Below, piece by piece: positions 1,548 through 22,301 of a stretch of 33,228 bases of DNA. The stretch spans positions 1 to 33,228 of the forward strand of contig JAKALX010000003.1 of the NCBI GenBank assembly GCA_021823905.1. The letters run 5' to 3'. The stretch is from Chloroflexota bacterium (GTDB taxonomy: Bacteria; Chloroflexota; Dehalococcoidia; Tepidiformales; Tepidiformaceae). Each line of letters begins with the position of its first letter. Within the stretch, counting starts at the first letter, position 1. Made by a program: the position numbers and the translations under genes. The notes beneath the pieces are model-generated. The model saw only the letters and a program-made list of their open reading frames with translations. It was not told the DNA's origin and searched no databases.

Positions 1548-1576
1548 TTGCCAATCAGTTCGCTTCAGAGTATACT
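1548..1576 (+). promoter_or_regulatory. sigma70-type promoter of the caspase/PLD operon
   Basis: TTGCCA (1548-1553), 17-bp spacer, TATACT (1571-1576); first gene with a good SD starts at 1660. Confidence 0.65.
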
Positions 1577-1659
1577 ATCTCACAAAGTTCGGCGAACTTA
1601 GCCGTGCATTTGAACGGACCGGTTCCGTTGGTCCCTGCTACGCGGCGAAGGAGGTTCCA

Positions 1660-2703
1660 ATGCCTGTCCCCTCCACGACTCTGTTTGGGACTCTCCGAGA
1701 AGACCCTATCACGTCGTTCTTCGCACTTCCGCCGTCCGCCAATGAAGGGGAGCCTCCGGCCTTCGCAACCCCCACCCACCCTGGCGGGATCGTCGCATTT
1801 GGTGCAGACAGCGGGGTGATCGCGTCGGAGGACGACCTCAACGACCAATTCGTCCTCTTTCAGTTCAGCGGAGAAGAGGGGGCGGCTCTTCTCGAGCCAT
1901 CTTCGGTCAAACCGAGGATCAAGGGTTCCGAACAAGCCCCTGACGTCTTAGCCAAGCTCCAGCTCGCTGCCTTCCATATCGGGGAGAACGAGGAGATAGA
2001 CAAGAACACCCGCGCCACCATCCGTCTTGACTTCGGGAAGGACGATAAGTCGAACTCCCGGCTCGACACCCTCTTCTGGTCCATCGCCGCTGGCCTCAAC
2101 CTGTACAACTCTGCAAAGACCAAGAAAGCGGAACCCAAAGATCTCAACGCCGACCTGTCGGCGGCGTTTTCACGGAGGCCGATCGAAATCCCCGGTGGAC
2201 TTGGCCGTTTCTCGTTTGAGGTCGTGAAGCACGAGGAACCCAAGTGGTGGCAGCGCGTCTTCAGCTTCCTCCAGAGCGGCACCGGTCAGCTACTCACGTC
2301 GACTTTAGGCTTTCCGGCAATCACGTCACAGGCCATCTCTTTCATCAATGAGCTGGTCGGACGTCTCCAGAGTGACAAGCCGAGCGTCCTGTTTAGGAGC
2401 CGCCCCCTCGTACTAGCGTTGAGCGAAATGGCACGCGACGATTTCACTGGCGGAGCCACGGGGGTGAGCGTAGGTGCGCTCAACCCCGGTTTCTGCCTTC
2501 TCGCCCGTGGCAGGGACTACCAGGGACTGATCACACACGATCCCGTGTTCATGGCGTCCTATGGAGTGATCAAACCGAAGACGGTGACTCTGCCTGACTT
2601 CCTCGCCGGCCGCTATGAGAACCCATTCAAGGACATGACTTACGCGGTCCTGAAGGTCGGTTGCCGCGAAACCAAGATCGACACCGCAATGCTGTGGGGC
2701 TGA
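1660..2703 (+). CDS. Hypothetical protein, first gene of the caspase/PLD operon
   Basis: In-frame ATG at 1660 after AAGGAGG; the longer ORF start (1519) lies upstream of the predicted promoter. No family recognised. Confidence 0.75.
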   Translation: MPVPSTTLFGTLREDPITSFFALPPSANEGEPPAFATPTHPGGIVAFGADSGVIASEDDLNDQFVLFQFSGEEGAALLEPSSVKPRIKGSEQAPDVLAKLQLAAFHIGENEEIDKNTRATIRLDFGKDDKSNSRLDTLFWSIAAGLNLYNSAKTKKAEPKDLNADLSAAFSRRPIEIPGGLGRFSFEVVKHEEPKWWQRVFSFLQSGTGQLLTSTLGFPAITSQAISFINELVGRLQSDKPSVLFRSRPLVLALSEMARDDFTGGATGVSVGALNPGFCLLARGRDYQGLITHDPVFMASYGVIKPKTVTLPDFLAGRYENPFKDMTYAVLKVGCRETKIDTAMLWG

Positions 2704-2829
2704 GGCTGGCATCGGGAGCGTTCCAAATGACCATGACCTGGAATGGTGGACACCGGGCCGCGCAAAGGCACGGCGGGGCAACGTGGCCAGCCCCGCCACT
2801 CCCACCAGCGATGCCCAGGAAAGACTAGC

Positions 2830-3927
2830 ATGCCCCGACAACCCGTAGTCCATCGTCAGTTGCCGAACGGCACCCCTGCTGTGCACGCTCTCGTCATCGG
2901 TGTCGGGCGTTACAACACGGCTGGGCCACCGCCGCTCAACGGCGCAGCTGATTCCGCAATCGCTTTCGCCGCGTGGCTCCTTCAGAAGCAGCATGCGCCG
3001 GGGTTGGAATTGGGCTCTGTCGACATCCTGGCTTCCCAAGCTTCCGGCGTGCCGGTGAAATGGAACGGCCACGACCTCGATCCGCCCAGCAGTGCTCTCG
3101 TGCAGCAGGCCGTAGACGCCTGGCACGATCGCGCCGCAGCAATGCGCGAGAACCTCGCTGTCTTCTACTTCTGCGGGCACGGGGTCGAGGTCGGGGCACT
3201 CGAGAGCCTACTCTTGGGGGACGTGGATCTTACGTGTCAAGATCCGTTCGCCAACGCCCTAGCGTTCGACGACTTCATCCGCGGCATGGACAGCTGCGGA
3301 GCACGGAAACAGCTCTTTGTCATCGACGCTTGCCGCGAGCTCCCCCCCGGTTACGGCGCGTGGGACGACGCCGTTGGCCTGGGCCGCCCAATGGTCCGCT
3401 TCAACCTGAAGCGGAGGGCTGCGATGAGGCCGAGGCTTCACGCGGTGCTGCAAGCCACGTCTTCGACGCAAAAGGCTTGGCCTGGAAGGCAGCAGGGCTG
3501 GTTCACTGAAGCGTTGTTGCTCGTTTTGGACGGCGCCGCAGGGAACAACCGTTACGCCGCAAGTGTGAATGAATTCCCTGTGAATACCCGCGAAATTGTG
3601 CCCACGATTGAGCTCCTCATGCAGCGCGAGTTCATCCCGCCTCCTGTCGGCGACCAACAGCCGGTCCGGCGCGGGGAGGGCGACTTCGATCTACACCTAC
3701 CTGATCCCCCCCAGGTACCTGTCCTCGTGACCCACGAGCCAGCAGCCTTGAACCAGGGGCGCCAGATGTCCGCCAAGAGGGCTGGCGTCGAGGTGGCCAA
3801 CTACACCTGGACGGATGCCAGACCGTGGCAGTCCACGCTTGCGGTCGGAGTCTACGAGTTCTGCAGCGAGAGCGGCGTACACCGTGAGGAGATCGTCGTG
3901 CCCGCACGGAAGGTGGTCCTGCAATGA
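2830..3927 (+). CDS. Caspase-like (peptidase C14, clan CD) protein with C-terminal beta-rich extension
   Basis: HALVIGVGRYN, FYFCGHGVE (His) and KQLFVIDACRE (Cys) are typical C14 motifs; start M at 2830 (MPRQPVVHRQL) preceded by AGGAAA. Confidence 0.85.
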   Translation: MPRQPVVHRQLPNGTPAVHALVIGVGRYNTAGPPPLNGAADSAIAFAAWLLQKQHAPGLELGSVDILASQASGVPVKWNGHDLDPPSSALVQQAVDAWHDRAAAMRENLAVFYFCGHGVEVGALESLLLGDVDLTCQDPFANALAFDDFIRGMDSCGARKQLFVIDACRELPPGYGAWDDAVGLGRPMVRFNLKRRAAMRPRLHAVLQATSSTQKAWPGRQQGWFTEALLLVLDGAAGNNRYAASVNEFPVNTREIVPTIELLMQREFIPPPVGDQQPVRRGEGDFDLHLPDPPQVPVLVTHEPAALNQGRQMSAKRAGVEVANYTWTDARPWQSTLAVGVYEFCSESGVHREEIVVPARKVVLQ

Positions 3928-5372
3928 ACGCAACTCTGGAGATCCAGTTGGAGCGTCGAGGACGATGGGATAGCCTTTCACAAGCCGCCTTGGTACGGAT
4001 CCGCCCGGCCCGCGGGCGCAGCATTGACGGGGTCTTGGCTTTGGGAAGCCGCTCCCCGCTCGAGGTCCATGTGGAAGCGGGTGAGATCGATCTCGAGGTT
4101 ACACTTCCATCTGGGACAGTCCTTACGCAGTCCCTCAACGTCACGGATGGCGAATTCAGAGCGGTGAGCTTCGAGGTGCCGGAGTCTCCGAGGGAATCAC
4201 TGAGGTGGTTGAGCCTGACGCGAGCTATCGATCTCCAGCGCCCGGTGCAGCACAGGACAATCCATCCCAAGGAGCAGAAGCAAGCTACCCAGCAAGTCCA
4301 AGAGTTCAGAACGCGGGGGCCCGTCGAGCGCCGGTCCTTCGACTTTACATCGGCCGAGCTTCCCTACCTCGATCGAGAGCAGCCAATGGGGCAGGGGGCA
4401 ATGCAGCGCGAGTGCCCTGACACTGAAGGCCTCGAGCTACCTACTCTCATTCCCGAAGAACTCCCGGAATTGGTCGAGGACGTGAGAGCAATCCAAGTGT
4501 CGCTCCTGGAGTCTGGGCCGGAACAGTCCTCCCTGGCCCTCCAGACCATGCACGAGGATTCGGACCTTCGCGTGTTGGCGGTGACGGACCGCAGGATCGC
4601 TAGGTCACTCCAGGGGGTTCCTGGCTCCGTGCTCCCCGCCCTCGCTCTGCGTGCCCCCTCCCTTCGGAGTGTTCTTCGCGTGTGCATGCTCCCGAGCCCG
4701 GGCTCAAACGGTGGGGCTGATCAGGAGGTTCACGTAGCCCTGCGATTCGTCCCGGGTGACCCCTTCCCCGATCTCCAAGTGATCCCTGCCGACCAGGATC
4801 TAGCCCCGCTTGTGGGTTTCATGGAGCGCGGTGACCAGCGCGCTTTGGAAGCGCTAAGGAAGGACTACGTCGAGAAGGCAAAGGCTCTCCTGTACGAAAA
4901 GATGAGCAGTCCAACCAACGCTGCACTGGGGCTCGCTCTCCTCTTGCGTCTCGGCGAGCTTGAAGGGACTGAGGACTGGCCGGCCAACCTGTGCCACTGG
5001 TTCCCGAATCTTCCCGATGCCGCTGCCCTGTACTCCGCGGTCCTGTTGCGCCGTCCTAGCGATACTTCCGCTTGGTGGTCAGATCTGCGACGGACAGCTC
5101 TGCAAGCCGCTCGGACCGGGCTGCCGTTCCTGACTGATTCTCTGCGGTATCTGCAGGGATCGCTGGCGGTACTTGACGAGGCGCCGGATGCGTCAGTTGA
5201 CGAAGATGAAGTTGCGCTTGCGAGACGCTGGTGCGACCGGCTCTTGAGGTCGGTTGACAGCCGTGCGGTCTTTACTACCGCAACGCTTCCCGAGAGTTGG
5301 AGCAGAGCGATCTGGGGCTACCGCCAACACGAGACGCGGGAGGACGCCGATGGACCAGTCGCGACTGGATGA
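3924..5372 (+). CDS. Hypothetical protein, translationally coupled to the caspase; predicted N-terminal beta-sandwich and C-terminal helical region
   Basis: 482-aa ORF whose ATG overlaps the caspase stop (ATGA); N-terminus ..LEVHVEAGEIDLEVTLPSGTVLTQSLNVTDGEFRAVSFEVP reads as beta-rich. Confidence 0.75.
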   Translation: MNATLEIQLERRGRWDSLSQAALVRIRPARGRSIDGVLALGSRSPLEVHVEAGEIDLEVTLPSGTVLTQSLNVTDGEFRAVSFEVPESPRESLRWLSLTRAIDLQRPVQHRTIHPKEQKQATQQVQEFRTRGPVERRSFDFTSAELPYLDREQPMGQGAMQRECPDTEGLELPTLIPEELPELVEDVRAIQVSLLESGPEQSSLALQTMHEDSDLRVLAVTDRRIARSLQGVPGSVLPALALRAPSLRSVLRVCMLPSPGSNGGADQEVHVALRFVPGDPFPDLQVIPADQDLAPLVGFMERGDQRALEALRKDYVEKAKALLYEKMSSPTNAALGLALLLRLGELEGTEDWPANLCHWFPNLPDAAALYSAVLLRRPSDTSAWWSDLRRTALQAARTGLPFLTDSLRYLQGSLAVLDEAPDASVDEDEVALARRWCDRLLRSVDSRAVFTTATLPESWSRAIWGYRQHETREDADGPVATG

Positions 5373-8300
5373 CCTCCGCAGGATCTTTGCACCCGTGCTC
5401 GCGGTTCTCAAACAGCACGGAGCAGAGATCACGGCTTTGCAGGGGCTCGCCGTGGCACGCCCCGGGTATGCCCTGGAGGGTGACACCTCCACCCCAGCAC
5501 TTGTGCTGGCGTTTCACCCGCCTCGCCCTCAGATCGATCTGACAGAACTCACGACCCGGTTCGGAGTGCGCGTGGATTCCGTCGATGCCTCTCCGCCCGA
5601 ACAGATTCGCGGCCAAACCACACCAACGTTTGTTTCTCCCTTGAGGTGCTTGCTCGAACCGATGGAAGTGCCCAGTTTCGCCCCAAGACGCGGCACCTAT
5701 CAACCTCCCGCTGGCGAGAATGCGCCGCGGTTGGACCCCGTGGATGCCGACATGGAGGTCACCGTCTGTGCCAGCCCTGACGCTGGCTGGCCTACACTAC
5801 GGGACTTCCTGCAAGAGGGGGTGCGAGAACGCCTCACTGTTGCTATGTATGACTTCACTGCCCGGCACGTGGAGGAGACGTTGCGGGCCCAGATGCGAGA
5901 CTCCAAGGCGACCCTTCGGCTCGTGCTTGATGCGAGGCCGGCCTCCAACCTCGGCGGCCCCACCGGTGTCAACGGACATGATCGTGTCGAGGCCGACGTA
6001 GTCGAGCGGTTTCGGGCACTCCTCGGTGAACGCTTCGAGGTTGCACGTGCCTCGGTAGGGGCGCATGGCGCTGTGCCCAAGGCCTACCACATCAAGGTCG
6101 CCTCGGCCGACGGCGAGCGTGTCTGGCTTTCTACGGGCAACTGGCAGTCATCCAACCTAGCGCCGTTCGACTACGCCAAACCCGGTGATGCCCCACCGTT
6201 GCCACTTTCCCGGTACAACCGCGACTACCATGTGGTGGTCCGTCATCCCCCCTTAGCGACGTGCTTTGCAGGTTTCATCGAGTACGATGCGACCCTCGGC
6301 GGCGATTTCGCGGAGCTGGAGACTGATGACGGTCCGATGCTGCTCGTGCCCGTCGCCGAGGCCCCGGAGGACTTCGCCGCGATCAAGCGTTACGAACCTC
6401 TGAAGGTGCAGGGGAGGATCAAGGTCTCGCCTTTGCTCACCCCCGATAACTTCCCCACATTCGTGAACTCGCTCCTCCAGGGCGCAAGGAGGCGGGTCTG
6501 GATTCAGAACCAGTACCTCACCCCCAACGAAGACGGCGACAACTTCCCCGAGTTTGACCGCCTGCTCGAGCTCCTTGGGCGCCTTGCCGGGCAGGAGCTT
6601 GACGTCCGGCTATGTCTCCGCGCGTGCCAGCCTCAGCATCGCGACCTCATCCTGGCCGCCGGCGTAAAGGCCTCTCAGATTCGGCTGCAGCGCAACTGCC
6701 ATGCGAAGCTCCTCGTCGTTGACGACGACTGGGTAGTGGTGGGAAGTCAAAACCTTTCGAATGATGGCTTTGTGGCCAACCGCGATGCCAGTCTGGCGTT
6801 CGAGCACAAAGAGATCACGGACTACTTTGCGACGATTTTCGAAGCCGACTGGGAGCGGGCATCGCCTGTCAGCCGGGGCGATTCCTTCGCGGCGCGCCTG
6901 GCAACGGGCGAGAGCGTCCCAATGGGGTGGACTCGAGTCCCCTGGCGGAAGCTATATGACTCAGATCCTCCCCGCCCGACGGTTGCAGTCTCCGTACCCA
7001 CCCACCCGACCATCACCGCGGCAGGGGCGGAAGAGGACTTGCCATTCTTCGGCGTCGACGCCGCAACGGGTCATCGCCGCCGTGAACGGACGAAGGACGT
7101 CGCCAGAGCCATTCGCAACAACCAAGGCATGCCCGGCGCCGACCTCCAACGGGTAGGAGCCGTTGCCTCGACACCCAGCTTTGGCCTTCCTCTTGCTGTC
7201 AATCCGGAGAGTCTTTCTGACATGGGGTGGGCTGTCGTGTGGGCACCTTCGGTTTCGAACGAAACAAAGGGAGCGCTGCGCCCTCTGCTAGAACTCAGGT
7301 ACCGCCAAGTCAACGACGACACGCTCTTCCGTGAGTTCGATTACCTGGATGACGAGACAGCCCGAGGCTTCCTGCAGCGGAACTCCGTGGACTTCGGGGG
7401 CGTGCGACCAGAAGCCGTGCCCTTCTACCTTCTGCTGGTAGGCGATCCGGCCGAGATGCCGTTCACCTTCCAGACCGTGCTGGACGTGGAGTATCGGGTC
7501 GGGCGACTGCATCTTCCCACCCCTACCGCTTATGCCCGGTATGCCGAGTCGGTCATCGGGGTTGAAAATGGTGGCGCTCGGCCGAGGGATCGCGTACTCC
7601 ATGCGTTCGGTCCGGCCCACCCCGGTGATAGCGCGACGACACTGAGTTGTGATCAACTGGTGCGCGCAGCCGCCGGATGGCTGGCCACGTACGGTGCGAT
7701 TACGGCCAGCAATAGACTCCGGGTCCAGACCGATGCGGGTGCCAGCGCAACGAAAGCGCGACTGCAGATGTTGCTGCGCGGCAAAGAGAGCCGTCCGGAG
7801 CTACTGTTCACGGCAGGCCACGGGTTGGTCTTCCCGCCCAACAGCAAGCAGCAGAGCGCCGAACAGGGAGCACTGGTCACCGCGGATTGGGACGGGTTCA
7901 GTAGCATTCGTCCCGCGGACCGAATGGCAGGCGCAGATGTGCCATCGGACGCGGATGTGCTAGGTCTGGTGGCATTCCTCTTTGCGTGCTTCGGGGCGGG
8001 GACCCCGAGAATGGACTCTTTTCCCACCGCGCAGGGTAGGCTGCTGGCTGACAAGCCTCTTGTCTCCGCACTGCCACAGGCGCTGCTCTCCCATGACAGA
8101 GGCGCTGCAATAGGCGTCTTCGGGCACATCGACCGCACATTGACCTGGTCGATCCAGCCTCCTGGGGCTCGGGTCGCAACGGATCCGTTTGCTCGGGCGG
8201 CGCTGGCCGTGCTGGCTGGGTACCGCCTTGGAAGCGCTTTGGAGGACCTCAATCAGCGCGGTGCCTCCTTGGCTGCGACTCTGGCTTCGACGCTGGCCCC

Positions 8301-8409
8301 ATCTGCACCACCTTTGAGCGACGCCGAGCTGGTTCGTACGTGGGTGCAGCAACGCGATGCTGTGGCGTTTGTCTTGCTCGGTGACCCCGCGGCGCGCCTT
8401 CCGCGGTAG
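5350..8409 (+). CDS. Phospholipase-D-family (two HKD motifs) protein fused to a C-terminal C25/CHAT-like cysteine-protease region
   Basis: HKD-like YHIKVASADGERVWLSTGNWQSSN and CHAKLLVVDDDWVVVGSQNLSNDG; C-terminal FYLLLVGDPAEMPFTFQ..VGRLHLPT, LLFTAGHG, VAFLFACFGAGTPR, VFGHIDRTLTWSI. ATG at 5350 with GGGAGGA SD; overlaps the previous gene by 23 bp. Confidence 0.8.
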   Translation: MDQSRLDDLRRIFAPVLAVLKQHGAEITALQGLAVARPGYALEGDTSTPALVLAFHPPRPQIDLTELTTRFGVRVDSVDASPPEQIRGQTTPTFVSPLRCLLEPMEVPSFAPRRGTYQPPAGENAPRLDPVDADMEVTVCASPDAGWPTLRDFLQEGVRERLTVAMYDFTARHVEETLRAQMRDSKATLRLVLDARPASNLGGPTGVNGHDRVEADVVERFRALLGERFEVARASVGAHGAVPKAYHIKVASADGERVWLSTGNWQSSNLAPFDYAKPGDAPPLPLSRYNRDYHVVVRHPPLATCFAGFIEYDATLGGDFAELETDDGPMLLVPVAEAPEDFAAIKRYEPLKVQGRIKVSPLLTPDNFPTFVNSLLQGARRRVWIQNQYLTPNEDGDNFPEFDRLLELLGRLAGQELDVRLCLRACQPQHRDLILAAGVKASQIRLQRNCHAKLLVVDDDWVVVGSQNLSNDGFVANRDASLAFEHKEITDYFATIFEADWERASPVSRGDSFAARLATGESVPMGWTRVPWRKLYDSDPPRPTVAVSVPTHPTITAAGAEEDLPFFGVDAATGHRRRERTKDVARAIRNNQGMPGADLQRVGAVASTPSFGLPLAVNPESLSDMGWAVVWAPSVSNETKGALRPLLELRYRQVNDDTLFREFDYLDDETARGFLQRNSVDFGGVRPEAVPFYLLLVGDPAEMPFTFQTVLDVEYRVGRLHLPTPTAYARYAESVIGVENGGARPRDRVLHAFGPAHPGDSATTLSCDQLVRAAAGWLATYGAITASNRLRVQTDAGASATKARLQMLLRGKESRPELLFTAGHGLVFPPNSKQQSAEQGALVTADWDGFSSIRPADRMAGADVPSDADVLGLVAFLFACFGAGTPRMDSFPTAQGRLLADKPLVSALPQALLSHDRGAAIGVFGHIDRTLTWSIQPPGARVATDPFARAALAVLAGYRLGSALEDLNQRGASLAATLASTLAPSAPPLSDAELVRTWVQQRDAVAFVLLGDPAARLPR

Positions 8410-8665: not shown

Positions 8666-9682
8666 ATGGCTGTCATGATCAACGCACAGACGAAGCGAAT
8701 CGGCCTGGCTCTCTCGGGCGGAGGCTTCAGGGCCGCGGCATTCCACCTCGGGGTTCTTAAGAAGCTCTACACACTCCACCTCTTGGACAAGATTGACCTC
8801 CTTTCGTGCGTGAGCGGGGGAAGCATCGCCGGCGGAGTTATGGTCACCCATCGTGATCCAGCGGAGGCCCTTTTGGCCCTTGAGAACTACCTCGCAACTC
8901 GATCAGTCGCTGTCGCTTCAGTGATTGGTGGCCTTCTCGACCCATTTGAGTCTCGCCTCGATAAGCTCGCCGAGTCGTACGATCGGGACCTCTTCAACGG
9001 GCGAACTCTCTCAACACTTCGCGACGGGCCACGGATTTACTTCAACTCGACAAACCTAGCTACAGGTAACCTCTTCTTCTTCGTCGCGGGTGGCGGACAT
9101 CCCGAGGAGATGGGTGACCATGAGTTCGGCGTGGCTGATGCATCAGGGTTTCCCCTCTGCAAGGCCGTCGCGGCCTCGTCGGCGTTCCCGCCGGTCTTTC
9201 CACCGCTTCGGCTGGATTCAGACATTTACCCGCCGGCAGGGAGGTCTGAGTATGTCACGCTGACCGATGGGGGCGTTTACGACAACATGGGAGTAAACCC
9301 ACTGCTCCTGGCTCGGAACCAGCTTGACTACCTGATCATCAGTGATGGAGGCAAGCCATTCGCGGTTGAGGACCGCCCGACCGAGCATGGGCTTGTCGTG
9401 CTGAGGGAAAGCCTTTCAATCATGATGGAGCAGATCCGCGGCCTCGAGTTCGATCGAATCGAATACAGGCACAAGGCTGGGAAAGGCCCTACGCCCCTGT
9501 GGTTCTCGATCGACAGCACCGAAGGCGAGGCGACCCCTGGCGACGCAGCCTTTGCATCCGCCATCCGCACTGACCTTAAGCTGCTCTCTCCAGCACAGTT
9601 GAACGTGCTTGCGCGACATGGGGCGAGCCTCCTGGAAGCACGTCTGACCCGGTATTCCCCGGAACTCCTCCAGGCTCACTAG
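8666..9682 (+). CDS. Patatin-like phospholipase
   Basis: LALSGGGFRAAAFHLGVLKKL (oxyanion hole), SCVSGGSIAGG (nucleophile elbow), LTDGGVYDNMGVNPLL (DGG motif); SD GAGAGGA. Confidence 0.92.
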   Translation: MAVMINAQTKRIGLALSGGGFRAAAFHLGVLKKLYTLHLLDKIDLLSCVSGGSIAGGVMVTHRDPAEALLALENYLATRSVAVASVIGGLLDPFESRLDKLAESYDRDLFNGRTLSTLRDGPRIYFNSTNLATGNLFFFVAGGGHPEEMGDHEFGVADASGFPLCKAVAASSAFPPVFPPLRLDSDIYPPAGRSEYVTLTDGGVYDNMGVNPLLLARNQLDYLIISDGGKPFAVEDRPTEHGLVVLRESLSIMMEQIRGLEFDRIEYRHKAGKGPTPLWFSIDSTEGEATPGDAAFASAIRTDLKLLSPAQLNVLARHGASLLEARLTRYSPELLQAH

Positions 9683-12838: not shown

Positions 12839-13015
12839 CTAGCTCTTTTCTTTCCGAACTCCCTTGAACGGGTCACTGCCCTGTTTCTGATCGATGAACT
12901 GGCCGGTGTCGGAATCCCGCTTGATCCAACGCTCGACCTTTGGGTTGTACACCTGCGACCGCCTCCGAACTGCTCCCTGGCGGTGTCCGTCACCGGTCGG
13001 TGGGTTCTTGGCCAT
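12839..13015 (-). CDS. Small basic conserved-looking protein (MAKNPPTGDGHRQGAVRRRSQVYNPKVERWIKRD..)
   Basis: 58 aa; overlaps the PIN gene end by 26 bp in the same operon; sequence resembles a small family I recall from bacterial accessory loci. Confidence 0.65.
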   Translation of the reverse strand: MAKNPPTGDGHRQGAVRRRSQVYNPKVERWIKRDSDTGQFIDQKQGSDPFKGVRKEKS

Positions 13016-13538
13016 CTCGCTTCCCTCCATGGCGTTGGGTCACCAACGCACGCACCTTGCGCTCGAACTCCGTGACAACCTCCTCCGTGATGAAGGCGTT
13101 GTTGTCCCTGATTCTCCTTGCGGTGGTGCAGCCATCCTCAACACCCAGCACCGCCAGCGCAATGAGATCGACCATCACCTCGAGTCCCCATGCAATCCCC
13201 ACACCCTCACTTGTGCAGGCCTTCCGGAGCGCCTTATCGTTCGTCATACAGCACCAGCCGTGGTCCCGTGCCAGGATCAGACAGAGCGCGTCGTCGAAGG
13301 CAATCCCTGGCCTCCCCTGGCCCGCTTCAAGCAGTTGCTCGATGGTCGGAACGACAACCGTCAAACCCAGCCGCTCGCACTCATTCACGCTGAGCTGTTC
13401 CACTTTCTCGACGACGGCTGTCGCGACGTACACGGGGCCGGTATGCCGAACCAGCAGGCTCAGAATCGATCGGTCCGCGTCCGCGTAGTCGATGAGGACG
13501 TTTGCGTCGGCAATGAGAGGAACGCGCGATCGCTCCAC
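12990..13538 (-). CDS. PIN-domain-like (DUF4411-type) protein, putative toxin
   Basis: VPLIADANVLIDYADAD.. and ..GIAFDDALCLILARDHGWCCMTNDKALRKAC.. match PIN acidic motifs; GTG start abuts the XRE-ImmA stop (TAG GTG). Confidence 0.8.
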   Translation of the reverse strand: MERSRVPLIADANVLIDYADADRSILSLLVRHTGPVYVATAVVEKVEQLSVNECERLGLTVVVPTIEQLLEAGQGRPGIAFDDALCLILARDHGWCCMTNDKALRKACTSEGVGIAWGLEVMVDLIALAVLGVEDGCTTARRIRDNNAFITEEVVTEFERKVRALVTQRHGGKRDGQEPTDR

Positions 13539-14678
13539 CTATAGATCTCCGACCCAGCTCGCGGCACGCGCTCGCATCTCGGGAAGTCGAAGGGCCAGGA
13601 TATCGGCGCCACGAGACAAGCTCACCGCTCCGGTCTCGATCCCCCTTCGGACGAGGAACGAGAGGCGATCGCCCCGAAAGTCACTCGGAGAAAGGTCATC
13701 CGGCTCTCCTGACCTTGAGCTCTCAGGAAAGCTCCCGTGGTAGGCGTCGACCCTGAGCCCTTCCGGCTCCGCGTCCTTACCTAGCGTCCGTCCATGGGCC
13801 ACTCGGTACGCATTCTGAAACATCTGCCAGACGTTCACATCCCCGCCAACCTCCTGCTGGAGACGGTACAGCACGGTCTTGTAGGAAACACGGAAGATGC
13901 GTTTCACCTTGAGGACACGCTCTACGAACGCCATTCCAGCCGTCTCGCTCCATTCCTTCCTGAACGACCGGTCGGGCATTAGGAAGTGCGCCGCAAAGAG
14001 GTTGGCTTCCTGCTCACGGCCTCTTTCCTCGGTAAGCTCCGCCACATCGTAATCGCCAGGATGAAGGACAAGGTGCCCAAGCTCATGTGCGGCGGTAAAG
14101 ATCCAGCGCTCGACCGAGATTCGCTCCCAGGTGTTTACGACGATTGCTGGACCGCCGTCCTCAGGGCCCACGGAAAGTCCGAAGAAGCTCGGTGAGGCCA
14201 GTACCAGCGAGAACAGTTTGATTCCCTTGGACTCCAAGAGCCCACAGATATCTCTCACCGGCTCCTCTGAACCGATACCAAACGCCCTGCGCACACTGTT
14301 GGCCGCTGCCACCGGATCACTGGGCACCTGCCCTGGCACCTTCGATCCCGTCCGGGCATCCAGGAGGTCTTCGAGTTCGTTGAAATCCTTTAACCAGCCC
14401 GCCACTGAGGCAAGGATCTGCTCTCGGGTGGTCAGCTTCTTCAGCGCCCTAAACCTCACCTGCTTGAGCTGCGCCACAGGGGTGACGATCTGCTGGACAC
14501 GAACGTCTAGCGCGGCGGCGAGCGCCTGCAGGGTGTCGACCCGAGGTAGAGACTGTCCGGACTCGATGTTACGGTAACCGACTCGAGACAGCCCCGCGCT
14601 GTCAGCCAGTTTCTCCTGAGTCAGCCCCTTTGAGACGCGCAAGCGGCACAGGTTTGACGCAATCGCCTGCGAGCCCAT
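13539..14678 (-). CDS. XRE-family HTH regulator with ImmA/IrrE metallopeptidase domain
   Basis: HTH: IASNLCRLRVSKGLTQEKLADSAGLSRVGYRNIESGQSLPRVDTLQALAAALDV; HEXXH-type AAHELGHLVLHPGDYD. ATG 14678 with GGGAGGTG SD. Confidence 0.92.
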   Translation of the reverse strand: MGSQAIASNLCRLRVSKGLTQEKLADSAGLSRVGYRNIESGQSLPRVDTLQALAAALDVRVQQIVTPVAQLKQVRFRALKKLTTREQILASVAGWLKDFNELEDLLDARTGSKVPGQVPSDPVAAANSVRRAFGIGSEEPVRDICGLLESKGIKLFSLVLASPSFFGLSVGPEDGGPAIVVNTWERISVERWIFTAAHELGHLVLHPGDYDVAELTEERGREQEANLFAAHFLMPDRSFRKEWSETAGMAFVERVLKVKRIFRVSYKTVLYRLQQEVGGDVNVWQMFQNAYRVAHGRTLGKDAEPEGLRVDAYHGSFPESSRSGEPDDLSPSDFRGDRLSFLVRRGIETGAVSLSRGADILALRLPEMRARAASWVGDL

Positions 14679-14697
14679 ACGACACCTCCCAATACAC

Positions 14698-14726
14698 AAG
14701 ATAAGTCATGATACAGGCATTGTCAA
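14698..14726 (-). promoter_or_regulatory. sigma70-type promoter of the XRE-PIN-SPARTA operon
   Basis: Minus strand TTGACA, 17-bp spacer, TATCTT; about 12-nt leader to the ATG at 14678. Confidence 0.7.
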
Positions 14727-14744
14727 GATGATAATACCCGTCGG

Positions 14745-15260
14745 TTAGAACTTCTTCAGCCCTTCTGCGGCCGCTTTGGCTTCCTCGCTCAGCTCTTCGC
14801 TCCCCTCCTGGCTCTTCTCCTGGTGGTCCTCGCTCAAGTCTGCAATCTCTCGCAGGAACTCCGCCGCTTCGGAGCGTGCCCGGGCCGTCTGCTCCATCTC
14901 GGTCAGGTACCGGCCGGCGGCGGCGCCGCGCCCCTCGAGCTCATGGGCAGCGTTTTCCTCGTCAGCCGAGGCTTCGTTGGTCGGCGTACTTACGTCCCGC
15001 TGTTCCTCCCCGACACCCTCCATGACCTCTCCGTGGTGCCGCTCTGCCTCGCCGGCCACATGTCGCTCGATCACATCGGCGATTTTGCGGAGCTGCTCGG
15101 CCGTCTCGCTGAGCGCGGGATCCTCCATTCCATCCCAGGCGTCCCGCGTCGCCTCGACCTCCTTCTTGTGGTCTTTCGCACCCTCGAGCCGGTGCTCAGT
15201 CTCGTCCTCGGCATGCTTCTCCTTGTCGGCCACGTCTTTCTTGGACCCAAGCTCACGCAT
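14745..15260 (-). CDS. Highly charged, probably coiled-coil hypothetical protein coupled to the HerA-like ATPase
   Basis: MRELGSKKDVADKEKHAEDETEHRLEGAKDHKKEVEATRDAWDG..; ATG overlaps the ATPase stop (ATGCGTGA). Confidence 0.7.
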   Translation of the reverse strand: MRELGSKKDVADKEKHAEDETEHRLEGAKDHKKEVEATRDAWDGMEDPALSETAEQLRKIADVIERHVAGEAERHHGEVMEGVGEEQRDVSTPTNEASADEENAAHELEGRGAAAGRYLTEMEQTARARSEAAEFLREIADLSEDHQEKSQEGSEELSEEAKAAAEGLKKF

Positions 15261-18075
15261 GCCCGCCTCCTTTGGGATCGTCAGCAGCATGGGAACTCTT
15301 GCCGGCACCCCTGCCGTCCAGCGCTCTGCTGACCGCGCGCACAAGGTCGTGCAGGCGTTCCCGATAAACCTTTCCGACGGTCCCGATCCCTTCTTCGCCA
15401 AGGACGCGCCCCAGCCATCCAAGGCGCCGCTCCAGCCGCCGTCTCGTCAACTCCGTCTGTGCCACAACGCGCTGGAGCGAGTGGTGATCCTGGTACCCTT
15501 TCCGGGCCAGAACGCCTCTGCACTCCTCCAGAAGCTCATCCTTGCTGCTGACCAGGAGGCTTTCGAGCTCCGCTGAAAGTCTCCTTTCGGTTGCCTCACG
15601 GAACCACTCCTGTTCCGCAAGGATCGCGAGGACCTGGTTGTCGTCGGGAGGATCTCCGGCCCCGTTTGAACCGTCCACCTCGAGGTGCACCGCGCGGTAG
15701 ATCCCGTTGAAGAACACCAGAGCCTCGCCGGGCATCAGACGCGACAGGGACTCTTCCACCGCGGGTTCCAGGAGCATCGCTGCTGCAATCGTGTCCCGCT
15801 CTTCACCGTCCGCCACGCCGTGCGTGATCTTCACATTGGTGTTCTTGACCACCTCGGGGGCGACCGCCGAAGGGATTTGATCCACCACAATGATGCCCAC
15901 CCCATAGGCGCGAATCTCCGCGAGGAGCTTGACGAGGAAGCGCGCCGCGTGACCTTCCGGGTCGGCCTCCTCGTTCCCCCGCGAGACCCCGCGGTGCGCC
16001 GGAATGAGGCCGTGTGCCTCCTCGATCACGATCACGAGACGGAGCTTCCGGCTCGGACCGAGGGTGCGCAGGTCGCGCAACAGCGAGCTGAGGTAGAGAA
16101 GGGTGAGGAAGCTCTGCTGGCGCGAGCTCAAGGCCTGCAACTCGATGATTGTAGGCCATGCAAGGAGGTCCGAGATGGCTGGAAACGGCGCCGACGTCCG
16201 AAATATCCGTCCCACGCTGCCCCAGGTCAGCGGTTGTACCCTCTTCCGGATCGCGGCATCGAGGTTTCCCGCCACCTCTCCCTGGTACCCGGCCTCCTTG
16301 GCCACCGCGCGGACCCCCCGCAGCAGGGCGTCGATGTCCGGGAACCGATTGCACTCTTCGCAAAGGTCCTCTTCGTCGTCCCCGGCCTCCTCATATGCCC
16401 AGCGCACCCCGGCGTCAAGGAACGCGTCCAGCGGGCCACCCAGCGACATCGTCGCCGCCAGGCACATGGTCAGCGTGGCAATGTGCTCCTCCACCGTGCA
16501 GCCGTGGGGAACCACAAACGGGTTGAACCGAAGAGGGGACAGACGCTCCAGCCCAGGCGTGAAGATCCGTAGCGACCCCGCCCAAGCGTTGCCGCACTGC
16601 AGCAACGCCCGGTATTCCGCCTTGGCTGGCTCCAGTACGACAAACGGGATCCCGAATTTCTCCCAGAGCTGCCTCAACAGGACCTTGATCGTCGTCGTCT
16701 TGCCGGAACCCGTAAACCCCGACGTGAACACGTGCCGCAGAAGCTCGTTGACACCCATCGAGAAGAGGTGGCCTGTCTCGACGGCGCGCCCGATGACCAG
16801 CGCAGGCTCCCCAGTTGTCGCTCCATTGGCTGCGCCCTCGGCTGTGGTGTCGAGGTTGATCGTCCGGAACGCCGCGCCCCGGCTCGTCGGCAACCGCAGC
16901 ATCGCGCCCCCCACCTCGCGTCCGACGATGCGGTTGAGGCTCCTGATCCGCTGGAGGCGGAGCCCCCGTGCCGGGTCCGTCCCGCGCAGCGCTTCTAGGC
17001 GCTGCTCGGCATCGCGGGCCGCGCCCGTCAGAGCCGCGACAGGGCGCTGCCCCTCGCCGTACCCCGAAAACGACCGCCCCAGACCAAGCGCGGCCTCATG
17101 CCCCGAGTCTCCCGGACCGAGGTGCACCACGTCGAACCGCTGCCCGCCGGCCAGCGAGCTTCCGATCACACGACTCAGCAGCTCACCAGCAGCGGGGGAC
17201 GAACACATGACCCGGATCGTGAACTCGTAGACCAGGCCGCCGAGCAACACTTCGAGCAACGCCTCGAGATCCTTCCGCAGGCGACCGGCGATCGGGTCGC
17301 CGCGTCGGGCCAGATCCACCGATCGGCCGGTGCTCCGCCGCTCGCTGGTGTATGCCGATTCAAGCAGGCTGAGATGCTCGATCTCCTCGCGCAGAGCTGC
17401 GACACCGGCCTCCGGAAGCGAGACCGGCCTCACGATCAGGTCGGCCACACAGGGGACACCGATTGAGGGCAACACACCGTCAAGCAGCTCGCGCCATTCG
17501 AGACCCGCACCCTCGCCGGCCAGCGGGGCAAGGCTGTAGCCGGGTTGCCCCGAGGCCAGATCCACAAGCTGTTCGCCCCCCGTCACCACGAAGACATGGA
17601 GATCGCCGCCGGCAGTGAGAAGACTCGCCGCCTCGGAGATGGACGACTCCCTGACCCGGCAGAACGCCCGGATCGCGTGATCCGGGGCCAGCCCCAGTTC
17701 GTGCTGTGGAACGCGGAAGAAGAGCTTCGCCCGTGCCTCGCCCGCACCTGCGTCCAAGGCAAGCCTGAGCCCGACCTCATTGCCGCCCCCCGGTACCGTC
17801 GCGTCAAGTGCCTTCACCAGGGCACTCGCCCCACCTTCGTCCGCTCCCTGACCGTATCGCAGACGGAACTTCGGCTGCGACAGGTCCAACAGCACGTCGA
17901 CTCCAAGGATCCTCGGCACCGGTGGCGGGCTCTTCACACCAGCACTTCCGTCAGGGGTTGCCGATGTGGCGCCCGGCCCACCGATCCTTCCGTCGTCTCC
18001 CGTTCCACGCCCGCGGCCGGCGCTCTTCATCAGCTTGAGAGAGGGAGTTCGCGGTCGAGCCGGTCTGTCTGTCAT
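15253..18075 (-). CDS. HerA/VirB4/TraC-like ATPase
   Basis: Walker A FTSGFTGSGKTTTIKVLL, Walker B LRLVIVIEEAHGLIP, ..GVGIIVVDQIPSAVAPEVVKNTNVKITHGVADGEERD..; SD GGAGGTG before ATG 18075. Confidence 0.88.
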   Translation of the reverse strand: MTDRPARPRTPSLKLMKSAGRGRGTGDDGRIGGPGATSATPDGSAGVKSPPPVPRILGVDVLLDLSQPKFRLRYGQGADEGGASALVKALDATVPGGGNEVGLRLALDAGAGEARAKLFFRVPQHELGLAPDHAIRAFCRVRESSISEAASLLTAGGDLHVFVVTGGEQLVDLASGQPGYSLAPLAGEGAGLEWRELLDGVLPSIGVPCVADLIVRPVSLPEAGVAALREEIEHLSLLESAYTSERRSTGRSVDLARRGDPIAGRLRKDLEALLEVLLGGLVYEFTIRVMCSSPAAGELLSRVIGSSLAGGQRFDVVHLGPGDSGHEAALGLGRSFSGYGEGQRPVAALTGAARDAEQRLEALRGTDPARGLRLQRIRSLNRIVGREVGGAMLRLPTSRGAAFRTINLDTTAEGAANGATTGEPALVIGRAVETGHLFSMGVNELLRHVFTSGFTGSGKTTTIKVLLRQLWEKFGIPFVVLEPAKAEYRALLQCGNAWAGSLRIFTPGLERLSPLRFNPFVVPHGCTVEEHIATLTMCLAATMSLGGPLDAFLDAGVRWAYEEAGDDEEDLCEECNRFPDIDALLRGVRAVAKEAGYQGEVAGNLDAAIRKRVQPLTWGSVGRIFRTSAPFPAISDLLAWPTIIELQALSSRQQSFLTLLYLSSLLRDLRTLGPSRKLRLVIVIEEAHGLIPAHRGVSRGNEEADPEGHAARFLVKLLAEIRAYGVGIIVVDQIPSAVAPEVVKNTNVKITHGVADGEERDTIAAAMLLEPAVEESLSRLMPGEALVFFNGIYRAVHLEVDGSNGAGDPPDDNQVLAILAEQEWFREATERRLSAELESLLVSSKDELLEECRGVLARKGYQDHHSLQRVVAQTELTRRRLERRLGWLGRVLGEEGIGTVGKVYRERLHDLVRAVSRALDGRGAGKSSHAADDPKGGGHA

Positions 18076-18093
18076 CCCATCACCTCCGCCAGG

Positions 18094-19680
18094 TCACGAG
18101 ATGCACTTCACTGGACCGGGCTTCTTGGCAATCGCGTGGCTCTCGAGACGATGCCCGGTCTCGATGAAGACCTCAACGCTCGCGTTGCGCAGCGGTGCAA
18201 AACCCGGAAGTCTCTCGAGGTCGCCGTGGTTCAGCCGGTCCAGGATTCCCCGTCCCGGTGGCACTTGGTCCGGTTCAACCACCAGACCCGAGTACACGGA
18301 AAGCTGCAACGCCCCCGCCACCAGCGCCGGGCGCACCGCGAAGACAAGGTCCGACACCTCAGGCTCGTGGCCTCCGTGCTCGACGACCACCCAAGCCCGT
18401 CCCGTTCTCGGTCCGAGCGCCTCCTCGACTCCCGTCCAGAACCGTAGCTCCAGGGCCGCCCAGTCCTCCTCCGCTGCCACCTCCATCGCCGTCGAGGCAA
18501 AAAGGTCCGAGACTGGCAGGCCACTGGTCCCGATGCTGAATTCGTTGCCGTTGACCTTCTCGAGTGAGAGCAGAATGAGGCGCCAGGCGTCCGGTCCTGC
18601 CGCGCTCACAGCCGTCAGCATGTTGATCCAGGAAGCCTCACTGATCCTGTCGTAGGCTCTCTCCACTTCGATCACTACCAGCCGGTGTGCCTCGTCCTCG
18701 GACCGTTCCGCGCCCCGACGGGGGGCCGCGAGCCGCTCCGCGCGCTCGCGCATCGTCCCGAGCGTTGGTTCCTCCGGATCCTGCCAATCCAGCAGGTTGG
18801 CGGTGATGAACGAGTCACAGACGGCAAGCGCTCCATCCGGGTTCTCATGCTTCCAGAGCTCGATCAACCGGCTCGCCGCGCCCAACATCTCCTCGCCCCT
18901 TGGCGCCTTACCGTCCTCTTGCTGCAGCATGTAGCGCCCCGCGTATTGGACGGGTCCCCCTGGCACGTCGGCGAAGAGAGCCCACCAGTCCGCCAAGGCA
19001 TTCTTCTCTCCAACCGGGTTCCTGGCGTTTCGAGCGGCGCGCGCCACGATCTCCAGGGCCGTGCTCCTGACGTCAAGCCCCACCGAGGGATCCGCGATCA
19101 GGTCCCGCGCCGCGACCGTTGCCAGAAACCCGTTCCCACGCTGGAAGCTGCTCCGTGACCGGATGAGTCCGCCGTATGCAGCCGCCTCACCCGCGGCCTG
19201 TCCCGGTTCGGCCGCGGCGATGGCCACCGCGGTGAGCCGCTCACGGACGTCGTCCTCCCCGACCTCGCCGGCGACGTCAAGGGCCGTCGCGATCCACCAG
19301 GCCTTCGCGCCTTCACCGACCTCATCCCAGGGTGCCTCGGCGAGCGCAATGAGGCACATCCCAAGCTCGTTTGCCACCGCGACCTGGCCTCCGCCGCGCA
19401 GCTCCGTGGCGAGCAACCTGCTCTCCTCCAACACGTGCCACGCACACGCCACAGCGGCCGAGTGTCGCTCCGCTGCGAGGCCTTCATCGTTGAGCCCGGC
19501 GAGCTCCTGCCACAAGACCATGAACCTTTGGAGTTCCTCCGGCAGGTGCGCGAGCGACATCCGCGCAGTCGATTCTCTCGCCCGAGGCCGGCGTGCCGCC
19601 AGCGCCCCCGACCACGGGACCAGCGCCGAGGACCGTCCTGTTGGAGCCCGCCCTTTCCCGCCATTTGTCTTTCGTGCCAT
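18094..19680 (-). CDS. Hypothetical protein, mostly alpha-helical, HerA operon
   Basis: 528-aa ORF packed between operon members (19 bp before the ATPase); no family recognised. Confidence 0.7.
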   Translation of the reverse strand: MARKTNGGKGRAPTGRSSALVPWSGALAARRPRARESTARMSLAHLPEELQRFMVLWQELAGLNDEGLAAERHSAAVACAWHVLEESRLLATELRGGGQVAVANELGMCLIALAEAPWDEVGEGAKAWWIATALDVAGEVGEDDVRERLTAVAIAAAEPGQAAGEAAAYGGLIRSRSSFQRGNGFLATVAARDLIADPSVGLDVRSTALEIVARAARNARNPVGEKNALADWWALFADVPGGPVQYAGRYMLQQEDGKAPRGEEMLGAASRLIELWKHENPDGALAVCDSFITANLLDWQDPEEPTLGTMRERAERLAAPRRGAERSEDEAHRLVVIEVERAYDRISEASWINMLTAVSAAGPDAWRLILLSLEKVNGNEFSIGTSGLPVSDLFASTAMEVAAEEDWAALELRFWTGVEEALGPRTGRAWVVVEHGGHEPEVSDLVFAVRPALVAGALQLSVYSGLVVEPDQVPPGRGILDRLNHGDLERLPGFAPLRNASVEVFIETGHRLESHAIAKKPGPVKCIS

Positions 19681-19714
19681 GTTCGCCTCCCGTGCCTCCG
19701 CGTCGGATCAACGC

Positions 19715-20221
19715 CTAGGTGCGCCCTTTGCGCCCGTGCCGCACGCCTTCCTCGATGAGATCGATGGCGGCTCGCAACGCGAAGTCGCAATCCATGTCCG
19801 ACCGCCAGACCTTCTGAAGCTGCAAGGGCAGCACAAGCCACTCGTCGGGGCCGGCGAGGAGCCGAACTTCAGGCGCGTGCTCCGGAAAAGTCCGCGGCAG
19901 CCAGGCGCATGCCTGCCGCTGTTCGCCGCCGGACAGCCTCAGAACGCCCTCGAACGCCAACGCTCCGTCGCGGAGAATCCTCACGACCATTTGAACGTCA
20001 GCGCTCTCGAGCAAGGCCCTCGCCGACTCCAACTCGCTTTGGTAGCGGCCCGGATCCGCCTGCCACCAGGGTGGAGTCCGCAACGCATCCAGCACCATCC
20101 GCCGTTCGCAAGCGTCGCGAAGACGCCCGAATGCGGGGTCTCGTTCGACCTCGATCGCCCCGCTCAATGCGTCCACCACGCGCTGCAGCGGTTGCGACCG
20201 ATAGGACACGAGTTCGTTCAT
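19715..20221 (-). CDS. Hypothetical protein, HerA operon
   Basis: Start MNELVSYRSQPLQRVVDALSGAIEVERDPAF at 20221, 14 bp after the upstream gene; 168 aa. Confidence 0.68.
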   Translation of the reverse strand: MNELVSYRSQPLQRVVDALSGAIEVERDPAFGRLRDACERRMVLDALRTPPWWQADPGRYQSELESARALLESADVQMVVRILRDGALAFEGVLRLSGGEQRQACAWLPRTFPEHAPEVRLLAGPDEWLVLPLQLQKVWRSDMDCDFALRAAIDLIEEGVRHGRKGRT

Positions 20222-20234
20222 GGGTTCCCTCCCC

Positions 20235-20930
20235 TCACAGTCGGAACCACGGCAAGGACGGTACTGACCCGGTCTCGGAAGGCGCTCTCCCGTGACCTGA
20301 ACTGTCTCGAGTCTCAGCCGGTGGCGCCAACGACCTGCCCGGCCCTGGTCCTGCACCTGACGCCGACCCCGAGTGCTGAGCGGGAAGCGCCATACCCGCG
20401 ATCGCATCCGCCTGTGCACGTTCCTTCTCCAGCGTCGCGAGCCGCTCCCTCGCGCTCCGGATGCATTCGCCTAGCTTCCTTAGCAGGTCACCGAAGAAGT
20501 TGCGCTCGGCGTGCCAGGCGGTGGTCGCGTTCCGAAGTTCGTCCGTGTATCGTCCGAAACTCCGGCGCCGCAGGGTCTCAATCCCTCTCTCGCCTTGATC
20601 CTGCGCAGCTTCGATTTCGCCGCCCAAGCGCCGTGCTTGGGTGCTCAGCGCCTCGATCTCGCGCCGTTGGGACGCGCCCTCCTTTGCCATCAGGCCCGCC
20701 ATCTCTTCGCGTTCTCTTGACTCTCGCCGAAACCTCGCAATCACCTCCGGCGTGGGCTCGTCGAAGTAGCCCGGCGCCGTGAGGAACTGGGCTGCCAGTC
20801 GCCGACAGGACGCTTCGCTTGACAGCGCCGCGCCGAGCGCCCTCAAGGCTTCTCCCATCCGCGCGCACAGTTCTTCGACCTCCCGCTCCCAGTCGTCTCG
20901 GGACTTCCTCGGCGTGTTCCCGCTTTCCAT
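20235..20930 (-). CDS. Coiled-coil hypothetical protein, HerA operon
   Basis: 231 aa, heptad-like ..REMAGLMAKEGASQRREIEALSTQARRLGGEIEAAQDQGERG.. and ..CIRSARERLATLEKERAQADA. Confidence 0.7.
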   Translation of the reverse strand: MESGNTPRKSRDDWEREVEELCARMGEALRALGAALSSEASCRRLAAQFLTAPGYFDEPTPEVIARFRRESREREEMAGLMAKEGASQRREIEALSTQARRLGGEIEAAQDQGERGIETLRRRSFGRYTDELRNATTAWHAERNFFGDLLRKLGECIRSARERLATLEKERAQADAIAGMALPAQHSGSASGAGPGPGRSLAPPAETRDSSGHGRAPSETGSVPSLPWFRL

Positions 20931-20939
20931 CGCGCCCTC

Positions 20940-22301
20940 CTACCGCACGGTGATGACAATGTTGACGTTGGCAGCCACGGGACGGCCCCACTCGTCCCTC
21001 GCGCCTTCCCAGTGCGACCGCTCCACCACTTCCCTGAACCGCTCCTGTACGAAGCCCGCCAAGGGGAATCTCGCCCCGACCGATTCGACGTGAGCGCGCC
21101 CCGCTGCGTCGATCACTGCCCTGACGGAGATCCGCTCCCCGGCGTAGGGCGCCAGCAACGACCCCACCGACGAGGGGTACTCAATACCTCCACGCAGTGC
21201 CGCCGGTTGAGGCTCTACCGGCGCGCGCACGGTGAGGGTCTCCTGGATCGAACCTGTCGGCTTCCCGTTGACCTCCCTCGTTGGTGATGATTGCGATGAG
21301 CCCTCCGGGTGAACGGCCGAGCGCCTTGGCGGTGAGGCAAATGACCGCGACTCCGCGACGGTCGACCGCCGCTTGACCACGGGCGAGCGGGAGCGCAGGA
21401 CCTTTCCTCCAGAGGCCTCACTGCGGGCCAATGGCTTGTTGTGGATCAGCGTTGGGGCGACGGTTGATGGCCGTACTGGCGGGCTCGAGACAGCTGGCCC
21501 CGTTCGGACTAGCCCTTGCCCGAGGTACCCGAGCCCCATCGCAATCAGGCATATGGCGGCCACCAGGGACAGTGCCGCGACCAGCGGCCGGCTCTTCCCC
21601 GGGACGCGACCCCTGCCGGGCGATGCGCCACAATCCAGAGCCGAGGACACGGCGCCTAGTGACCGGAGGGGAACCGACGCATTCACCGGCACCTCGACCG
21701 CCTCAACGTCAATGACCGGTCCCCCATCGGACCCGAAGACGACTTCCTCTACCTCCGAAACCGCTTCCTCGCCAGCGGTGAACCCGGCCGAGGGTTGGCT
21801 CTGACAGTCGCCGCCGTTGGGCGAAGGGTGAGCGCCGCCTGCGACAACAACGTCATCGCCGCCGACCGCGACGGCTCTGGCCTTGTCGAGCAGCCCGAGC
21901 TCCTGGAACGTCGGCTCTTTCGCAGGCGTTGCTGGCATCTGCTGGCCATTCGGCGTCGGGGTCTGTTCTGATCGCACCGGCCAGCTGTCAGGACAGAACG
22001 ATAGCGTCGACGCCGCCGGTGGGAGCGAGACCTCTCCGAAACACTGCTCCTGGCGTCTGGTCCGCAGGACCTCTTCGATTCCTTCTGGCTGAGGCAGGGA
22101 GCCTCGCGTTCCAGTACCCCACAGCCCGGCACCGTGCTCCTCGACGCGGATTGCGGCCGTAGCGATGGAGAAGCCTCCCAGACTCATGCCTGTCGCTTCC
22201 GCACACTGTCGGGTTCCGCGTCGGTGCTGCCGCCCTGGCGACCGGTTACTGCTTCGCTCTGCCTCCTTCTTCACGGCCGGCCCTTTGCTGTGTGCCTTCA
22301 T
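20940..22301 (-). CDS. Single-pass membrane protein with TonB C-terminal-like domain
   Basis: TM PLVAALSLVAAICLIAMGLGYLGQGLV, linker, then YPSSVGSLLAPYAGERISVRAVIDAAGRAHVESVGARFPLAGFVQERFREVVERSHWEGARDEWGRPVAANVNIVITV (TonB-C-like). Start uncertain (22184 also possible). Confidence 0.65.
   Translation of the reverse strand: MKAHSKGPAVKKEAERSSNRSPGRQHRRGTRQCAEATGMSLGGFSIATAAIRVEEHGAGLWGTGTRGSLPQPEGIEEVLRTRRQEQCFGEVSLPPAASTLSFCPDSWPVRSEQTPTPNGQQMPATPAKEPTFQELGLLDKARAVAVGGDDVVVAGGAHPSPNGGDCQSQPSAGFTAGEEAVSEVEEVVFGSDGGPVIDVEAVEVPVNASVPLRSLGAVSSALDCGASPGRGRVPGKSRPLVAALSLVAAICLIAMGLGYLGQGLVRTGPAVSSPPVRPSTVAPTLIHNKPLARSEASGGKVLRSRSPVVKRRSTVAESRSFASPPRRSAVHPEGSSQSSPTREVNGKPTGSIQETLTVRAPVEPQPAALRGGIEYPSSVGSLLAPYAGERISVRAVIDAAGRAHVESVGARFPLAGFVQERFREVVERSHWEGARDEWGRPVAANVNIVITVR

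Follow-up and report, generated by a model that had tools for sequence, protein, structure and literature searches.

The locus raises the question of whether a caspase-like gene, tightly spaced with the gene of a coupled partner and with a PLD-protease fusion, belongs to an undescribed multi-effector operon, as proposed in an earlier note on this DNA, or to a system that is already known. The analysis covered the window, i.e., the whole 33,228-nt stretch of contig JAKALX010000003.1 (GCA_021823905.1, Chloroflexota bacterium, forward strand), to which all positions refer, and the reading frames, overlaps and domains of the operon were derived anew.

Organization of the operon

We confirmed the reading frames of the four genes, all on the plus strand where the earlier note had placed them. 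G1 (1660-2703) encodes a 347-aa protein, with a good SD sequence and a coding-like GC content by codon position. Its start is most likely at 1660, since an AGGAGG lies upstream and the 1519-1659 extension of the frame is devoid of a coding-like codon GC pattern. The open reading frame of G2 begins at 2743, and the gene probably starts at 2830 (2830-3927); with these starts, G1 and G2 are separated by 126 bp. The ATGA shared by the end of G2 and the start of G3 (3924-3927; G3 spans 3924-5372) was confirmed, as was the 23-bp overlap of G3 and G4 (5350-5372), and the SD sequence of G4 is located inside G3. A sigma70-type promoter had also been proposed to drive the operon. A sigma70-like TTGCCA-17-TATACT is present at 1548-1576 (+), with a 10/12 match, and the scan yielded 2 such sites versus 1.1 ± 1.1 in shuffled sequences, a number not above shuffles, which leaves this claim unsupported. 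ARAGORN and Rfam detected 0 tRNA in the window, and the description of the region as a tRNA-bounded island is therefore unsupported as well. At the contig end, we noted a match to the Group II intron RNA (Rfam RF00029; 33099-33205, minus strand).

The caspase and its partner form a CanA-CanB-like core

The canu system, published in November 2025, consists of the caspase CanA, of CanB and of the pro-nuclease CanC. In that report (PMC12799240), CanB possesses TPR/Ig-like parts and co-purifies/co-elutes with CanA, and the two proteins together activate the third enzyme, the CanC pro-nuclease.

G2 is a caspase, as had been claimed (Pfam Peptidase_C14, 2.8e-10), with CGHG and DACR motifs and the catalytic residues H146 and C197 (394-aa numbering). 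The GHG and D-x-C (DAC) motifs were invariant in the G2/CanA alignment, and the approximately 100 residues that follow the caspase domain, the place of a C-terminal Ig-like domain in canu, also align with relatives. Against profiles built without any window sequence, G2 scored 1.2e-58 for CanA and G3 scored 6.7e-50 for CanB. No family was assigned to G3 in Pfam, NCBIfam or PADLOC. The AF2 model of G3 (mean pLDDT 72.5) predicted an N-terminal beta-sandwich (2-85) and C-terminal helical repeats (about 294-443), for which Foldseek returned weak Ig/prealbumin-like and TPR matches, none below E 1e-3. This predicted fold would be consistent with CanB, short of proof. Of the two proteins that the earlier note had left outside any recognised family, G3 is thus CanB-like and only G1 stays an orphan. 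No G1 homologue was found in plasmids, phages, 301 Chloroflexota genomes, the PDB or all the loci collected; G1 showed no relation to any ORF of these loci, and no predicted TM segment (maximum 19-residue KD of 1.27). A relationship of G1 to the alpha/beta-hydrolase family found upstream of other caspases (see below) was considered and rejected after comparison.

In tblastn searches against plasmids, Streptomyces, Bradyrhizobium, Sinorhizobium, Caballeronia and Agrobacterium showed a caspase homologue with, behind it, a G3 homologue and an MBL-fold hydrolase, in this order. Because the sequences of the G3/CanB alignment (A1) diverge too strongly for it to serve in a scan of the genome collection, the caspase alignment was chosen, and about 85,000 species genomes yielded 80 related caspase loci. 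The CanB family was adjacent to, or co-encoded with, the caspase in 76 of the 80 loci, and 64 of these 76 presented an NTGA start/stop overlap at the caspase stop. At one locus (L010) CanA and CanB form a single protein, and at another (L069) CanB and the MBL protein CanC do. These counts uphold the earlier view of the caspase and its coupled partner as a functional pair. Co-conservation of all four genes did not hold: CanA-CanB is retained across the 80 loci with exchanged effectors, and G1 stands without relatives. The placement of the CanA of the window in the caspase tree is uncertain, and its branch is long. CanB was found in 0 of the 300 other Chloroflexota genomes sampled (301 in all), so the operon is sporadic, as is typical of defence genes.

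The G2-G3 core matches canu (PMC12799240) by its layout, its MBL family and its domain make-up. The MBL gene of one locus (L013) scored 6.3e-56 against the NCBIfam AVAST MBL hydrolase, which is the nuclease family of that report. Because of the matching layout, the core is not undescribed; the proposed novelty of the operon holds for the effector only. PADLOC assigned the operon to no named system. CanC itself was not found in the window by a non-self profile search, nor in the rest of its own genome (86% complete), where the best match was a generic fragment (E 0.009).

The third gene encodes a fusion of PLD and C25-type modules

G4 was confirmed as a fusion of a PLD module and a C25-type module. 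Its N-terminal PLD module (5350-6990, +; PLDc_2 2.4e-19, non-self PLD profile 3.7e-88) contains two HxK(x4)D motifs (H247 and H451), and its C-terminal module (7027-8409, +; non-self C25 profile 2.2e-95) is homologous to annotated C25-type (clan CD) cysteine peptidases. In this module H824 and C880 are present, and the His and Cys are invariant in alignments A3/A4. The Pfam C25 model (PF01364) reached 13.9 bits on the G4 module versus a cut-off of 23 (E 0.03-0.26), and matched 5/5 aligned relatives at E up to 1, with a best value of 4.5e-10. The AF2 model of G4, made from a 3-row alignment, failed (pLDDT 36.5), and a cleavage site in G4 was therefore not identified. G4 was also considered as a DISARM DrmC or Mokosh MkoB-type protein and this was rejected, only the PLD part of these profiles being matched; the scan of window genes revealed no canonical DISARM/Mokosh partner gene.

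Plasmids, phages and the Chloroflexota sample yielded no second PLD-C25 fusion, and the exact architecture of G4 therefore rests on one locus. Each of its two modules nevertheless occurs with a CanA/CanB core elsewhere. A Verrucomicrobiales locus (L091) has the order EndoNS-CanA-CanB-C25, with a C25 of the G4 family (E 2e-116), and in Bradyrhizobium (L017/L086) the CanA caspase lies beside a CanB-trypsin-PLD protein. These loci share the core with the window and carry one module each, whereas the modules are separate there, in different companies, and not fused to one another.

C25 modules were also found in 21 other Chloroflexota genomes. CanA/CanB was absent from all eight of the C25 regions inspected in these, and the idea of C25 as a canu-specific module was rejected accordingly. 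C25 lies beside a conserved alpha/beta-hydrolase in four lineages (Nostoc, Sinorhizobium and two Chloroflexota genomes). At the loci concerned (L006, L007, L100, L126) a C25-type gene is next to a conserved hydrolase of about 440 aa, with GHSFG in 3 of the 4, which hints at a recurrent protease-lipase pair outside canu.

Effectors are exchanged at CanA-CanB loci

Among the 80 caspase loci, the MBL-fold nuclease (CanC) was encoded downstream in 49 and a shared alpha/beta-hydrolase in 22, in most cases immediately upstream of the caspase gene; the two never occurred together. The naive chance of such an absence of overlap is 7e-13, a figure that is not a true p-value since the loci are related. 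The presence or absence of CanC requires 10 changes on the caspase tree, and at least 4 gains or losses are forced by well-supported branches. Other effectors at CanA/CanB loci were a subtilase (L068, L078), an astacin (L074, L086), EndoNS (L091) and a Tle1-like phospholipase (L014).

The alpha/beta-hydrolase branch includes L044, L051, L053, L057, L060, L062, L072, L075, L077, L083, L093, L098 and others, and the accessible part of the canu report (PMC12799240) makes no mention of it. Neither of the two eLife surveys, one on NTP-dependent conflict systems and one on bacterial death domains, mentions gingipain, patatin or MBL partners in its text. At L051 (3361-6522), a CanA-type caspase forms one protein with an NB-ARC/STAND-like ATPase and TPRs, possibly a receptor form. 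On an Agrobacterium plasmid (L018, 7298-12474), a TIR/caspase pair resembling type IV Thoeris lies back to back with a canu operon. CanB also appeared in long fusions with Hsp70, ribosomal S2 or a glycosyltransferase (L072, L053, L076); these were not interpreted, as they may partly be ORF-calling artefacts.

Patatin, SPARTA and other neighbours

Both neighbours named in the earlier note were recovered. G5 (8666-9682, +), which starts 256 bp after G4, is a patatin-like phospholipase (Pfam Patatin 1.9e-20), and SPARTA, on the strand opposite to the operon, comprises a short pAgo (7e-169) and a TIR-APAZ protein (2e-66). Patatin relatives of G5 were observed beside CanABC in 7 of the 80 loci, most of them adjacent. 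Given a background of about 1 patatin per 4 Mb in relatives of the genome of the window, versus 7 in the about 1.4 Mb of loci searched, the association of patatin with CanC looks enriched, and G5 is a possible co-effector. On a plasmid of Rhizobium, the gene of an MBL-fold protein is immediately followed by that of a patatin 65% identical to G5 (L130, 8293-11032), which suggests a recent transfer and possibly a patatin-MBL system.

Beside SPARTA, we noted a PIN-like protein (recognised by eye) and an HTH-M78 protein (ImmA/IrrE-like, Pfam), encoded at 12990-13538 and 13539-14699 on the minus strand, which are probably a toxin-antitoxin-type pair. Further on (15253-22301, minus strand), a HerA/DUF87-type ATPase is accompanied by several adjacent same-strand proteins without Pfam family, a possible further defence module.

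A probable canu-like system with an exchanged effector

We consider, with a probability of about 0.6, that the operon is a canu-like abortive-infection system with an exchanged effector, and our best reading is that the canu-type nuclease has been replaced by G4, a lipid/phosphodiester-plus-protease effector. This builds on the domains and catalytic motifs observed, the homology of G2 and G3 to CanA-CanB, the absence of CanC and the presence of the G4 modules at other CanA/CanB loci. The mechanism, in which we infer phage sensing and defence, the activation of G4 by G2, the PLD substrate and any roles of G1 and G5, would run as follows. G2 (CanA-like) and G3 (CanB-like, Ig-plus-helical-repeat) would form a sensing and protease complex which, on infection, would cleave G4 instead of a CanC nuclease. 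G4 would be a pro-effector, composed of a PLD-type phosphodiesterase acting on phospholipid or nucleic acid, a linker and a C25-type protease; once released or unmasked, it would harm the cell and halt the phage, and the patatin could add a membrane attack. That the caspase and its partner may activate the PLD fusion, as suggested before, is a reasonable inference by analogy, because the published CanA and CanB co-purify and activate a third enzyme; effector cleavage/activation by the caspase complex and phage defence are published only for the CanABC of K. aerogenes (PMC12799240).

More tentatively, CanA-CanB could be a general trigger with interchangeable effectors (nucleases, lipases, proteases), the window holding a nuclease-free version where a fused phospholipase/executioner protease would be set off by an initiator caspase, as a bacterial two-tier protease cascade. 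We regard this broader proposal as possible but doubtful.

It is unlikely that the genes are chance neighbours, with a CanC-less canu core lying beside an independent PLD-C25/patatin lipase-protease module that has its own function. Such a reading would account for the CanA-CanB pair at L019, which has the best-scoring caspase and no obvious effector, for the pairing of C25 with alpha/beta-hydrolase genes that Nostoc, Sinorhizobium and a Chloroflexota-like genome show away from canu, and for the closest relative of G5 (65%), which adjoins an MBL gene with no caspase there. However, G3 and G4 overlap by 23 bp with the SD sequence of G4 within G3, C25 or PLD occupies this slot, or is joined to CanB, at other CanA loci, and effectors at the third position are the rule in the family. 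A distinct division of labour, with CanA as initiator and C25 as an executioner whose targets for processing would be PLD, patatin or cell proteins, appears improbable to us: the C25 catalytic His/Cys are invariant across all aligned relatives, C25 lies beside a lipase-like hydrolase in four lineages and is the third gene after CanA-CanB at L091, but the roles could also be reversed, with C25 as activator and the caspase as accessory. A function other than phage defence, i.e., a hydrolase set against competitors or eukaryotes or a developmental cell death, is very improbable, since the rhizobial relatives do lie in plasmid clusters rich in proteases and lipases, plus an amidase, but the N-termini of G1-G5 are without obvious signal peptide (by eye only), secretion genes were not noticed nearby, CanA/CanB homologues work in phage defence (PMC12799240), and SPARTA adjoins the operon.

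The preferred reading, a canu-like system with an exchanged effector, bears on more than this locus. The published report (PMC12799240) presents canu as a caspase-activated nuclease system; our results suggest that the caspase core is a chassis on which the effector (nuclease, alpha/beta-hydrolase, subtilase, C25, PLD) is repeatedly exchanged. If true, the range of damage triggered by bacterial caspases would be wider, and the question arises of whether one caspase core activates unrelated pro-effectors via a common cut site. A likely role is thereby offered for many unannotated neighbours of bacterial caspases. What is new is the putative PLD-C25 effector on CanA-CanB; the caspase-partner core matches one already known.

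Comparison with known systems

In type IV Thoeris (TIR plus caspase) and in bacterial gasdermin systems, a caspase-like protease executes abortive infection. The operon differs from the former in that the TIR of the window is part of SPARTA, encoded on the opposite strand, and from the latter in that the gasdermin family was not detected here. The Hachiman/AVAST protease-activated nuclease pairs (PMC12799240) share the principle of a protease that unleashes a co-encoded pro-effector, whereas theirs is a trypsin-like protease with an MBL nuclease, under other sensors. Compared with canu (PMC12799240), the window is without the CanC MBL pro-nuclease, its third gene being the PLD-C25 fusion, and it has the orphan G1 upstream and the patatin downstream. 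The two otherwise have in common the order caspase, partner, effector with start/stop overlap, a caspase carrying a C-terminal extension, a partner made of an Ig-like sandwich and helical repeats, and a sporadic occurrence in defence islands.
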